Source of the DNA: Methylomicrobium sp.
Lineage (GTDB): Bacteria > Pseudomonadota > Gammaproteobacteria > Methylococcales > Methylomonadaceae
Assembly (NCBI GenBank): GCA_018333785.1
Contig: JAGXSU010000139.1
Span: 1-64,000 of the forward strand
Direction of reading: 5' to 3'
Length of the DNA: 64,000 nt
Below are positions 38,933 to 45,461 of the stretch, piece after piece. Under the pieces are notes generated by a model. It was given only the letters and a program-made list of their open reading frames with translations, did no database searches and was not told the DNA's origin. How positions within the stretch are numbered: the first letter of the stretch is position 1; each line of letters begins with the position of its first letter. A program made the position numbers and the translations under genes.

Positions 38933-40543
38933 ATGAGCGACAAGTCAAAAAATGAGACTGAATATTCAAGAAGGGAATTTCTTATGGATATCGGCAAGGC
39001 AGGCGGGATAGCTGCCATGTACGGAACGATGGGTGCACTCGGAATGTTTGCACCACCCGCCGGTGCAGCGCCGGTTAACTTTGTTCCTTTGACGGGATTG
39101 CCAAAGAGTAAAAAGGGGAATCGGGTTATTGTCATCGGCGCGGGAATTGCCGGCCTGACTTCAGCTTATGAATTGATGAAAGCAGGCTATTCCGTTACCC
39201 TTCTGGAAGGCCTTGACCGCCCAGGAGGTCGAAACTGGACTGTTCGTGGCGGTGACTCAGCAACTGAAACTGATGGTGTTACACAAGTTTGTAAATTCGA
39301 CCGCAACCAGTATATGAATTGCGGCCCAGCTCGTTTACCACAGCACCATATAACCATCGAATACTGCCGTGAATTGGGCGTTGAACTGGAAGTTTTCACT
39401 AATCAGAATGCGGATGCCTACTACTATAATGAAGGAGTGGGGCCACTTTCCGGAGTTCCGGTTCGCCATCGAACCGCGAAAGCAGACATTTATGGCTACA
39501 TGTCTGAGCTTCTTTCCAAAGCAACCAATCAAGGTGCATTGGACGATACCTTAACCGCTGCTGACAAGGCGCTTTTAACTCAATTTTTAACCAACTTCGG
39601 CAATTTGCAAAGCGGCAAATACAATGGCTCTTCTCGCAGAGGCTATAAAGTGTCTCCTGGCGCAGGAAGTCAATCCGGTGAAATTGATTTACCGGCTTAT
39701 GCGATGAGTGAATTATTACAATCACGCTTCGGACTCAATTTTTCCTTCGAATTCGGTTGGGACCAGGCCATGCTGATGTTCCAGCCCGTAGGCGGGATGG
39801 ATGCTATCCCAAAAGCATTGGAGAGGGCAATCAGACCCAAAACGAAGCTGGTTTACAGCGCAAAAGTCACCGGGATTTACAATACAACGGAAGGTGTTCA
39901 GGTTGTGTACGAGGACAAGTCGAACACGCCCAAACAGCTTGAAGCCGATTTCTGTATCTGCACAATTCCGCCGCAGGTTCTAAAGAAGATACCCTCGAAC
40001 TTATCCCCGAATGTTATAGACGCTCTGGGCGTAGCCATTCCTCAATCAACAGGAAAAATCGGCCTGCAGTACAAGCGCCGTTTCTGGGAAGAAGACGACA
40101 AAATCATGGGTGGAATCACCAACACCAACACCAACGTAAGTACGATTTGGTACCCAAGTTACGGATATCTAGGCAAAAAAGGGGTTGTGGTGGGTTACTA
40201 TAATTTTGGCGCTAATGCCAATTTCTATTCCGGCCTGAGTCCTGCCGAGCGTCAAGAACAAGCGCTTATCCAAGGGGAAAAGATTCATGGTCCCTCTTAT
40301 CGCAGCGAACTGGAAAATTCTTTCAGTGTTTCCTGGATCAAAACACCTTTCAGCGAGGGCGGCTGGGTTGGTTGGCCTACCTCGGGAGGGCAAAGAGTGC
40401 CTGCGTATGACTTGCTCAACAAACCGGATGGCAACATCTATTTCGCCGGTGATCATTTGAGTTATTACATCGCCTGGCAAGCAGGTGCATTTGACTCGGC
40501 GCGTAAAGTGGTGATGGAAATCCATCAGCGGGTTGCTGCTTAA
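38933..40543 (+). CDS. Tat-exported flavin amine oxidase (L-amino acid/monoamine oxidase family)
   Basis: 536 residues. The twin-arginine signal SRREFL (residues 12-17) is followed by a hydrophobic stretch and a cleavage region near AGAAP (about 44). The FAD site is VIVIGAGIAGLTSAYELMKA near 65-85, with GRNWTVRGG following. The C-terminal FAD contact is GNIYFAGDHLSYYIAWQAGA. The enzyme should oxidise an amine or amino acid with O2 to an imine and H2O2 in the periplasm, after folding with FAD in the cytoplasm. GAGG lies nine bases ahead of the ATG. It is 45 bases upstream of an exported RidA gene, which fits release of an imine. Confidence 0.9.
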   Translation: MSDKSKNETEYSRREFLMDIGKAGGIAAMYGTMGALGMFAPPAGAAPVNFVPLTGLPKSKKGNRVIVIGAGIAGLTSAYELMKAGYSVTLLEGLDRPGGRNWTVRGGDSATETDGVTQVCKFDRNQYMNCGPARLPQHHITIEYCRELGVELEVFTNQNADAYYYNEGVGPLSGVPVRHRTAKADIYGYMSELLSKATNQGALDDTLTAADKALLTQFLTNFGNLQSGKYNGSSRRGYKVSPGAGSQSGEIDLPAYAMSELLQSRFGLNFSFEFGWDQAMLMFQPVGGMDAIPKALERAIRPKTKLVYSAKVTGIYNTTEGVQVVYEDKSNTPKQLEADFCICTIPPQVLKKIPSNLSPNVIDALGVAIPQSTGKIGLQYKRRFWEEDDKIMGGITNTNTNVSTIWYPSYGYLGKKGVVVGYYNFGANANFYSGLSPAERQEQALIQGEKIHGPSYRSELENSFSVSWIKTPFSEGGWVGWPTSGGQRVPAYDLLNKPDGNIYFAGDHLSYYIAWQAGAFDSARKVVMEIHQRVAA

Positions 40544-40588
40544 AGCCGAGCATTCGATTAATCTCTTAAACTGATCAAGGAAAAAACC

Positions 40589-41221
40589 ATGAAAAAATTC
40601 AATCTGAATCATCATCTAATCCTCAGTCTTGCTGCGGCTGTAACCCTCTTTTCCGGAAACGTTTTTTCTGAGCCAAAACCCACCGAAACGGATTACAACA
40701 TACCGCTAAGGGCTAACGGCACTATCAACCCGGACCCATTTCTAGCCAGCGGCGTTGGCGTTGGAAAAAATGTCAGTATTTATTGGTCGGCAGGCACCGG
40801 GCCGGCTGCACGAAATACAGCGGCCCCTGCCGGTACACCTGAACGTTATATCGATCCGGCAATCACGATTCCCTATTCAACCATAACCGAAGCGCAAGGA
40901 TTGAATAACCTTGCACGCATCAAAGAAAATCTGGAGTCTGTCGGACTGACACTGGAAGACGTGACCTTTATGCGAATCTATCTTGAGGCGCCTCCCGGAG
41001 CAACGCGTGCTGACTATAACGGCTGGAATCGTGCATATCGCAAGTATTTTGCCAACGTAAACCTTGAGACGGGCGCGGTAATTCCTGCCTATGAGCCTGT
41101 GGCCGTCGTCAACGCTCGCCGACCTGCCAGATCAAACCTTCAGGTAGCCACTTTACCCGTTGCAGGCTGGCTAGTTGAAATAGAAGTGATTGCGGCTTAT
41201 CCTCAGGTGCCTAAAAAATAA
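40589..41221 (+). CDS. Exported RidA-family enamine/imine deaminase
   Basis: 210 residues. A Sec signal peptide (about 1-28; LILSLAAAVTLFSGNVFS) precedes a RidA (YjgF/YER057c) domain. The domain ends in RSNLQVATLPVAGWLVEIEV: the Arg and Glu that bind and activate the imine carboxylate in RidA enzymes are both present. RidA hydrolyses reactive enamines and imines made by amine-acting enzymes. Most RidA proteins are cytoplasmic; export fits its partner, the Tat-exported flavin oxidase 45 bases upstream. A strong terminator follows, so the two genes form a simple operon. The N-terminal part has an insertion rich in Ala, Thr and Gly compared with short RidA forms. Confidence 0.88.
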   Translation: MKKFNLNHHLILSLAAAVTLFSGNVFSEPKPTETDYNIPLRANGTINPDPFLASGVGVGKNVSIYWSAGTGPAARNTAAPAGTPERYIDPAITIPYSTITEAQGLNNLARIKENLESVGLTLEDVTFMRIYLEAPPGATRADYNGWNRAYRKYFANVNLETGAVIPAYEPVAVVNARRPARSNLQVATLPVAGWLVEIEVIAAYPQVPKK

Positions 41222-42663: not shown

Positions 42664-43101
42664 TTAATTTATGTTTGTTGCATCCACTTGATCATTTTTG
42701 TCTGGCAAGAACGACAATATACCGTAAAAAATATGTGACAAGCCGGTATACAGAAAAAAGGGATTATATTTTTCGTCTATCGGGACATCGTTGATGGTGC
42801 CATAAAACTCAACGCCACCGATCAACAAGATAATGAACAATCCCATGATCGTCAATTCCCGATAATTTTGTTTTCTCTGGCAGTATATGAACACGACCAA
42901 CTGGGCTAAAGCCAAGTAGATCAGCATAATTTTCAGATTATTACCCAGCGGCCCGTATAGATCATCACCCATCGTAAAAAAACTGTCTTTCCCTGTTACC
43001 GACATGACTGCAGTCACGACTGTGACTAACAGCGAAACATAGTAGTTAGCTTCCAAACCGTACTTGACACTGTTTAAACTTTTTGTTGCTAAAGCATTCA
43101 T
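42664..43101 (-). CDS. Four-helix membrane protein behind a structured leader
   Basis: 145 residues from the ATG at 43101, which has GAGG five bases upstream. The frame is open much further upstream, but that part runs through hairpins and is rejected. Four hydrophobic helices are predicted (about 22-40, 55-75, 83-100, 112-135), with short loops and a charged tail. I recognise no family. It lies 433 bases downstream of ftsH on the same strand, and its leader holds several hairpins and a perfect intrinsic terminator that ends 11 bases ahead of the ribosome site, so expression is probably controlled by attenuation. Confidence 0.7.
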   Translation of the reverse strand: MNALATKSLNSVKYGLEANYYVSLLVTVVTAVMSVTGKDSFFTMGDDLYGPLGNNLKIMLIYLALAQLVVFIYCQRKQNYRELTIMGLFIILLIGGVEFYGTINDVPIDEKYNPFFLYTGLSHIFYGILSFLPDKNDQVDATNIN

Positions 43102-43113
43102 GAGAACCTCGCG

Positions 43114-43153
43114 AAAAAAAAGAGTCCTCCCCCTAGTGAAGCGTGGGGAGGAC
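43114..43153 (-). terminator. Strong intrinsic terminator inside the leader of the 42664-43101 gene
   Basis: The perfect arms GTCCTCCCC and GGGGAGGAC (43145-43153 with 43124-43132) enclose about 12 bases, and T8 follows on the minus strand. It ends 11 bases ahead of the GAGG site. It could end ftsH transcripts, act as an attenuator, or both. Confidence 0.85.
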
Positions 43154-43340
43154 TTATAGAGGAGGACATTACAAAGGGAAGCATGCTTCCCGCAGTGCAA
43201 AAGCACTGCCAAAATCAATATCAAGCAGCTATTGATTTTGTCAGCCACCCGCAGAATATCTGCCCGTGGCAATCGTTTATAAAACCCTATATTTATGCGG
43301 ATAACTTTTTGGTTTGCCCATCTCCACAACGGATGGGGGG
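43114..43340 (-). ncRNA. Structured 5' leader with intrinsic terminator (attenuator candidate)
   Basis: From 5' to 3' on the minus strand the hairpins are: GATGGG..CCCATC-type (43317-43337), GCCAC..GTGGC with inner GCAG..CTGC (43244-43270), AAAATCAA..TTGATTTT (43211-43239), GCAGTGC-TTTT-GCACTGC (43192-43209), GGGAAGCATGCTTCCC (43176-43191) and the terminator GTCCTCCCC..GGGGGAGGAC followed by eight T (43114-43153). A second GTCCTCC copy (complement of 43162-43168) could pair with the same arm instead. It matches no riboswitch class I know. Confidence 0.6.
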
Positions 43341-43453
43341 ATTTGATCAACTGTTAAAACGCTTGCTGCCAATTTAAAACTTTCAACAAGCGGTTATGAT
43401 CATTATTTTTTCTAGTATTTCAGTCATACCTGTTTTTTGCCGGACATTCTATT

Positions 43454-43534: not shown

Positions 43535-45430
43535 TCAGGTTGCCAATCCGCCTTGGCCTACCGTTGGAGTTGTTCCGGAACCTGTTTCCGCAGTTGGCGG
43601 CTCGTCAGGTTTTGACTCTTCAATTACAGGTGGCGCCAATTTCTTGCCGTTCATCAAGTCATCGATCTGGAACTTATCAATGGTTTCCCATTGCATCAAC
43701 GCATCGGCCATGTTGTGAAGAATATCCATATTCTCATTAAGGATGGTGCGGGCCCTTTCGTAGTTCAAATCCAGCAGATTACGTATTTCTTCATCTATCA
43801 TCTCGGCCATTTTCTCGGACATGGCTTTAGCCTGCGGCCCCATGTACCCACGACCTTGATCTTCGCCGTAATCCATTGCACCCAACCGGTCTGAAAGACC
43901 CCATTTAGTCACCATATTTCTGGCTAACTGGGTGGCCCTTTCAATATCGTTTGAGGCGCCGGTAGTGACTTTGTTCTTACCGTAGATAATTTCTTCGGCG
44001 ACACGGCCACCGTACAAACTGGCAATCTGGCTTTCAAGCTTGTCACGACTGGCGCTGTAGGTATCGCGCTCCGGCAGGAACATGGTAATACCCAAAGCTC
44101 CGCCCCGCGGCATGATGCTGACTTTGTAGACAGGATCATGTTCAGGTACTGTCCGACCTACAATCGCGTGACCGGCTTCATGATAAGCCGTCATCAGCTT
44201 ATCTTCTTCCCTCATCATCATGCTGCGTTTTTCAGCACCCATGATCATCTTGTCACGCGCTTTATCGAGGTGGTTCATATCAACGAATTTCTTATTCGTC
44301 CTTGCGGCAAACAATGCGCCTTCGTTGACCAGATTGGCTAATTCGGCACCTGAGAAACCAGGCGTGCCTCTTGCCAAATCCATGATGTTGACATCGTCAG
44401 CCAACGGAACTTTCTTTAAATGCACTCTCAAGATTTGTTCACGGCCTCTGATATCAGGCAAGCCAACAGTGACTTGTCTGTCAAAACGACCGGGTCTTAA
44501 CAACGCTTTATCCAGTACATCGGCGCGGTTAGTCGCCGCAATTACGATAATGCCTTCGTTGCCCGCAAAACCGTCCATTTCAACCAGCAATTGGTTTAGA
44601 GTTTGTTCGCGTTCATCATTACCGCCATTCATGCCGTTACCGCGATGTCTTCCCACCGCATCAATTTCATCAATGAAGATGATGCAAGGTGCGCGTTTTT
44701 TGGCTTGTTCAAACATATCGCGTACCCTGGAGGCACCGACACCGACGAACATTTCAACGAAATCAGAACCTGATATCGAGAAGAAAGGCACTCCGGCTTC
44801 ACCGGCTATGGCTCTGGCCAACAAGGTTTTACCAGTACCGGGAGGTCCTACCATTAGCAAACCTCGGGGTATTTTGCCACCCAGATATTCGTACTTCGAG
44901 GGATCTCTCAGGAAGTCCACCACTTCAACAACATCTTCCTTCGCTTCTTCAACGCCGGCAACATCGTCAAATTTGACCTTGATCTGATTTTCTTCCAGCA
45001 ATTTAGCTTTGCTTTTGCCGAAATTCATCTGGCCACCCATACCGCCACCGCCTTGTTGCTTGCGGAAGAAGTAAACCCAGACAGCAATCAGAAGCAGCAT
45101 AGGCGCCCAGGAAATGAAGATCTGCATCAACATTGACTGTCTTGGCGGACTGGCGACTTTGATTTTGACTCCGTACTCCAACAGTTCATCGATTAAACGA
45201 GCATCATTGGGGTTGTAAGTAATAAACCGTTCGCCATTTCTTCTGCGACCGTCTATCTCATCGCCATTAATAATGACTTCAGAGATAGCACCTCCTCTTA
45301 CATCTTGTATGAAATCAGAGTAAGACAAGGCATAGTTACTGTCCCCCGACGGGTTCATCCGGCTGAATGCTGAAAAGAGCGTAACGCCTACAGCAATCCA
45401 GATTAAAAATTTAATTGCATTTGTTTTCAT
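43535..45430 (-). CDS. ftsH: ATP-dependent zinc metalloprotease FtsH
   Basis: 631 residues, the normal length. Two N-terminal helices (about 5-22 and 100-120) flank a small periplasmic domain. The AAA+ domain has Walker A GPPGTGKT near 200, Walker [13 protein letters not shown], the SRH text [21 protein letters not shown], and the protease has the zinc motif HEAGH near 420 with a later Asp. It degrades membrane and cytoplasmic proteins as a hexamer in the inner membrane. It lies 31 bases after hflC, so protease and its HflKC regulator are in one operon, an arrangement different from the hfq-hflX-hflKC order of E. coli. Confidence 0.97.
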
Positions 45431-45461
45431 ACTTTTTCTCCTCTATGGAAGTATGAGGATA

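Follow-up and report, generated by a model that had tools for sequence, protein, structure and literature searches.

A conserved anti-Shine-Dalgarno seed and terminator in Methylomonadaceae: a probable small RNA family with pmoB as candidate target

The leader and its local hairpins

What is the role of a strongly structured leader that runs into an intrinsic terminator ahead of a membrane protein gene? Such a locus was examined in a 64,000-nt stretch of DNA (the window, whose numbering is used throughout), in which the leader, the conserved element, the membrane gene and ftsH all lie on the minus strand (Table 1). The preliminary description had recognized in it the layout of transcription attenuation. 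All of its five hairpins were found on the minus strand at the positions given, and the intrinsic terminator that it placed just ahead of the membrane gene is present. The terminator stem covers 43153-43124, the run of 8 T covers 43121-43114, and the ATG of the membrane gene is at 43101; the T run, described as ending 11 bases before the ribosome site, is actually separated from the ATG by 12 nt and from a weak GAGG ribosome site by 3 nt. The view that the leader belongs to no known riboswitch class was borne out, as the Rfam scan gave no match in the window at the gathering threshold, and nine related loci gave none even at E <= 1.

Table 1. Features of the locus, in window coordinates
Feature	Position	Strand	Basis or remark
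Hairpin 1, genus-specific	43315..43337	-	stem CCCATC..GATGGG at 43337-43317
Hairpin 2, genus-specific	43244..43270	-	compensatory change at two pairs; partly disrupted in the window genome
Hairpin 3, genus-specific	43211..43239	-	sequence and genus comparison
Hairpin 4, genus-specific (GCAGTGCTTTTGCACTGC)	43192..43209	-	one compensatory pair in G001
Hairpin 5, genus-specific (GGGAAGCATGCTTCCC)	43176..43191	-	sequence and genus comparison
Conserved single-stranded seed GTCCTCCTCTATAA (core CTCCTCTAT)	43154..43167	-	same core in 58 of 67 copies; perfectly complementary to the pmoB ribosome-binding site
Intrinsic terminator, stem GTCCTCCCC/GGGGAGGAC and 8 T	43114..43153	-	fold and covariation over 58 sequences
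Downstream gene, 145-aa predicted helical membrane protein of no known family	42664..43101	-	
Upstream gene ftsH	43535..45430	-	

The 244-nt leader had a minimum free energy of -89.4 kcal/mol, compared with -66.1 +/- 4.7 kcal/mol for 200 dinucleotide shuffles (z = -4.97), and none of the shuffles was as good. Comparison of three genomes of the genus showed four both-side changes in the upstream helices, which were kept, so the five upstream hairpins are probably real structures. A DNA search with the leader gave matches in three members of the genus (Methylicorpusculum) only, and the five hairpins are therefore local. In the predicted fold, the 3' half of hairpin 1 (UGUGGAG..GGGCA, 43328-43315) pairs with the conserved core instead, in rivalry with hairpin 1; by this prediction the 5' segment can mask the seed, in this genus only.

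We also considered whether the leader is translated. In the window genome the membrane-gene frame is open across the whole element (42664-43350, minus strand), and gene callers could pick a start that gives 228 aa. The open frame is shorter in sister genomes, so the leader is probably not coding in frame with the membrane gene. One frame of the seed reads Pro-Pro-Leu-stop in many genomes; as the stop is missing in g11, g14 and g15 and hence not conserved, a leader peptide was rejected.

A conserved seed and terminator

The upstream regions of homologous membrane genes were lined up, which revealed a common unit, [G/A]TCCTCCTCTATAA, followed by a terminator. The ancient portion of the leader is thus confined to its final approximately 50 nt, in which a core that is unpaired and reads CUCCUCUAU (most often GUCCUCCUCUAUAA) leads into the strong terminator. 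Ahead of homologous genes outside the genus the five hairpins were absent; the part of the leader that was kept is the terminator with the sequence preceding it, and here the compensatory change was strong. A covariance model (R1) built from the seed and the terminator matched 73 of 131 genomes of the family at E <= 0.1, a few weak or pmoB-complement matches among these, and 102 of 251 genomes of the order at E <= 0.01, where all matches listed lie in Methylomonadaceae. At least 66 genomes, spread over 17 genera of a single family, carry the element, and none of the matches listed lies outside that family. The R1 matches in G142 and G065:C150 were judged to be chance terminators, and such terminators were left out of the 67 copies from 17 genera that were inspected.

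The core of nine nucleotides is unpaired in local folds of four other genomes and partly, weakly paired with downstream sequence in the window genome. Upstream of the seed, no similarity between genera was found except a promoter-like sequence, and no conserved ligand-binding aptamer was seen. Reading the seed as a -10 promoter box (TATAA) was rejected, as neither its last position nor a -35 is conserved. The element thus combines what is expected of a small RNA (sRNA), a conserved unpaired seed and a Rho-independent terminator with a U tail.

The preliminary description had asked for compensatory changes between relatives, and these were found in the terminator: 97.1% of the cells of its stem were paired and both-side changes occurred at seven of eight pairs (58 copies). 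The covariation score was 0.446, compared with 0.192 after shuffling and at most 0.145 after sliding (0.05 for a slide of one column), in an alignment fitted to the covariance model, which favours the stem. The second copy of GTCCTCC, proposed as an alternative partner of the terminator arm, is present at 43167-43161. Its pairing with the arm has not been kept up: as the arms become CCTTC/GAAGG, CCCCTTC/GAAGGGG and others, the duplicate remains CTCCTC. The terminator helix has 8-12 bp, whereas in many genomes the longest possible alternative is down to 4-6 bp, and mutually exclusive terminator and antiterminator helices conserved by covariation were not found in the 67 aligned copies. Because the core is fixed while the terminator arms change, the alternative pairing is not a maintained switch.

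The element and the membrane gene are separable

In most genomes the element lies directly ahead of the membrane gene, which counts against an independent sRNA. The terminator and the start codon of the gene are mostly a few tens of nt apart, and this holds in two gene contexts, either after ftsH (g1, g10, g11, g15, g16) or beside a divergent TIGR01777-like epimerase, so the element and the gene travel together. An ftsH orthologue precedes the element, the downstream gene or both in five genera. This arrangement fits a cis attenuator, in which the terminator would set the read-through into the membrane gene and CUCCUCUAU would be bound by a factor acting in trans (a protein or another RNA, possibly the pmo mRNA).

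However, a riboswitch or an attenuator always lies in the leader of the gene that it regulates, and at nine copies of the element that gene was absent or broken. No downstream gene was detectable beside the element in G036, G082, G034, G141, G150 and G094, and a broken gene was found beside it in G024, G093 and G097. Conversely, the gene was present and the element was not detected in G027, G029, G075, G076 and G145, while G034, G141 and G150 carry a copy of the gene elsewhere in the genome, without the element. Between G141 and G150, in which the gene is absent at the locus, the element is identical at 50 of 50 positions, compared with 82% identity over the next 100 nt; between G030 and G077 it is again identical at 50 of 50, compared with 68% just upstream. 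The element and the membrane gene are thus separable. Since the element outlasts the gene and the gene occurs without the element, attenuation of the membrane gene is unsupported as a conserved role, even though the leader, terminator and gene described for the locus are all there. With the alternative helix not maintained either, a cis attenuator is an unlikely account of the element, and attenuation is possible as a secondary role. Separability, together with a promoter-like sequence or the 3' end of ftsH upstream, leads us to read the element as an independent small RNA instead of a riboswitch or attenuator tied to the gene.

The membrane protein itself belongs to a family that Methylomonadaceae share with a few other Methylococcales, with invariant N55, Y100 and N104, and a homologue of 97% identity is encoded in a Methylicorpusculum sp. 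contig. No Pfam or NCBIfam family was assigned to it, and its AlphaFold model (pLDDT 84, good confidence) gave no significant Foldseek match. Elsewhere in the window, a flavin amine oxidase gene is followed by a gene of the endoribonuclease L-PSP (RidA-like) family (38933-41221, plus strand).

A promoter-like sequence upstream of the element

Most copies of the element stand behind a conserved promoter-like sequence, and others would form the 3' end of the ftsH mRNA. The sequence TTGTACA-n-TTGACA-17-TAAGTT was found 39-215 nt upstream of the element in ten genera, gene-less copies included. One promoter-like sequence upstream of both element and gene in many genera, and their close spacing, would also suit a double function, in which the terminated leader is released as an sRNA and read-through from the same promoter expresses the membrane protein. 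The separability of the two shows that such coupling is not required, and we regard this double function as quite unlikely.

The repeats TTGTACATGTT (TTGTACA, 11-nt spacing) precede TTGACA-17-TAAGTT at 60-160 nt upstream of the element (L169, L170, L174, L130, L119). They often lie between the element and the divergent TIGR01777-like epimerase, and they resemble LitR/CarH operators. Operators of the LitR/CarH type have the form TGTACA-N12-TGTACA (PMC9758184). The TTGTACA half-sites are shared with the promoter-like sequence of the element, where they stand next to the -35 in several genera; LitR/CarH half-sites start 18 nt apart, against 11 nt here, and candidate half-sites are absent from the genus of the window. 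Control of the promoter-like sequence by light or B12 is speculation.

pmoB as a candidate target

A second genomic copy of the leader was sought and rejected, since the other exact matches were mostly the reverse complement at pmoB, and this gave the idea of pmoB as a target. Scanning with the 13-mer seed likewise gave a perfect reverse complement at the pmoB ribosome-binding site, TTATAGAGGAGGATATATG, which recurred across genera; in the window genome the full 13-mer complement occurs only at pmoB. The predicted duplex between seed and pmoB has 14 bp and -22.0 kcal/mol, whereas the best duplex among 65 ORF starts of the window, ftsH included, has -14.5 kcal/mol. The element was found in 14 of 16 genera with TATAGAGGAG at pmoB and in three of 13 others (Fisher p = 0.0007, phylogeny ignored). 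No other deeply conserved complement of the seed was found. Two further targets were rejected: the complement seen at sodB in this genus does not persist in the others, and the one at ftsH is limited to g1 and g10. The ftsH ribosome site CATAGAGGAGAAAAAGTATG (45428-45445, minus strand) is complementary to the seed (-14.5 kcal/mol), and is kept in the genus and partly in g10.

Changes in the seed and in pmoB do not clearly correspond. Position 9 of the seed is changed without compensation at pmoB in genus g29 and in G073, and where pmoB is changed at position 12 the seed follows only in g16, not in g10 or g11. The pairing energy was barely better within genomes (-20.5 kcal/mol) than across genera (-20.0 kcal/mol), and the pmoB site is the same in genera without the element (g17, g19). 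For a 13-mer resembling a Shine-Dalgarno (SD) complement, a chance match to one ribosome site is conceivable. Across most of the family (for example at locus L087, in G000:C62) a small conserved hairpin in the spacer ahead of pmoB, CTCTA-TTA-TAGAG, holds the pmoB ribosome site, and this cis structure of its own may explain part of the conservation there. Because the seed changes are mostly uncompensated and the site is kept in some genera without the element, pmoB is a candidate only; on sequence grounds it is a strong candidate target, not a demonstrated one. Alternatively, the element could simply terminate transcription, of ftsH for instance, its conserved flank having no part in regulation and its SD/anti-SD match at pmoB being coincidental. 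This would agree with the CCUCC/GGAGG core common to seed and ribosome site and with the position of the element in g10 and g11, where the ftsH stop codon precedes it by a few nt, but is very doubtful, as termination does not need a fixed unpaired stretch of 9-14 nt and the core is kept over 17 genera while the stem changes.

Relation to known systems

The sRNA reading has a parallel in NfeR1, a rhizobial sRNA of the alpha-r14 family that base-pairs with the ntrB ribosome-binding site and thereby silences ntrB (PMC10746234). Like the element, the alpha-r14 RNAs have an ultraconserved unpaired anti-SD motif (CCUCCUCCC) with stems that vary in sequence (PMC10746234). However, they occur in Alphaproteobacteria and carry three such motifs in three hairpins, whereas the element, of gammaproteobacterial methanotrophs, has one motif, one terminator and an extended complement, CUCUAUAA, to one target. 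With its single motif of different sequence and no Rfam match, the element does not belong to the alpha-r14 family. By analogy, the seed would most likely pair at the pmoB translation start as NfeR1 does at ntrB.

The CcsR RNAs carry a C-rich anti-SD motif. CcsR1-4 of Rhodobacter are derived from a 3'-UTR, downstream of ccaF1, and processed from a protein-coding transcript (PMC8307010). Cotranscription with a protein-coding gene, as proposed for the ftsH-linked copies of the element, is the common trait; the bacteria, neighbours and structure differ, and the sequences were compared by Rfam scan alone. The locus resembles attenuators and riboswitch leaders in its order of structured leader, intrinsic terminator and gene, but the element differs from them in having no conserved aptamer and no maintained antiterminator, and in surviving gene loss.

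Proposed function

We propose, with a probability of roughly 55%, that the conserved unit forms the 3' terminus of an sRNA acting in trans, made up of the CUCCUCUAU seed and the terminator and pairing with the pmoB ribosome-binding site. The comparisons point to what is probably a new sRNA family of the anti-SD seed kind. Transcription would end at this terminator with a U tail, and the released RNA would bear the exposed anti-SD seed. Depending on the genus, the RNA would come from its own promoter, with a length of roughly 90-260 nt, or from the 3' end of the ftsH mRNA; in Methylicorpusculum it would be an RNA of approximately 240 nt with five extra hairpins. The seed would act in trans on ribosome-binding sites, above all that of pmoB, and we infer that pairing there would block translation of pmoB. 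The membrane gene would often lie alongside, its expression coming from read-through or a different start.

A more tentative proposal, which we hold with less than even confidence, is that a family-wide sRNA represses particulate methane monooxygenase at the pmoB site, in many genera from a LitR/CarH-like TTGTACA promoter that is possibly under light or B12 control. No small RNA controlling pmo genes in methanotrophs was found in the open-access literature. Aerobic methane oxidation has as its central enzyme particulate methane monooxygenase, of which pmoB encodes subunit B, and repression of this kind, if true, would be a post-transcriptional brake on the key enzyme of that process. An RNA that carries a 9-13-nt exact complement of the pmoB ribosome site across 17 genera would offer a testable handle on how this enzyme is tuned, and the element also gives a handle on the role of the uncharacterised membrane protein encoded alongside it.
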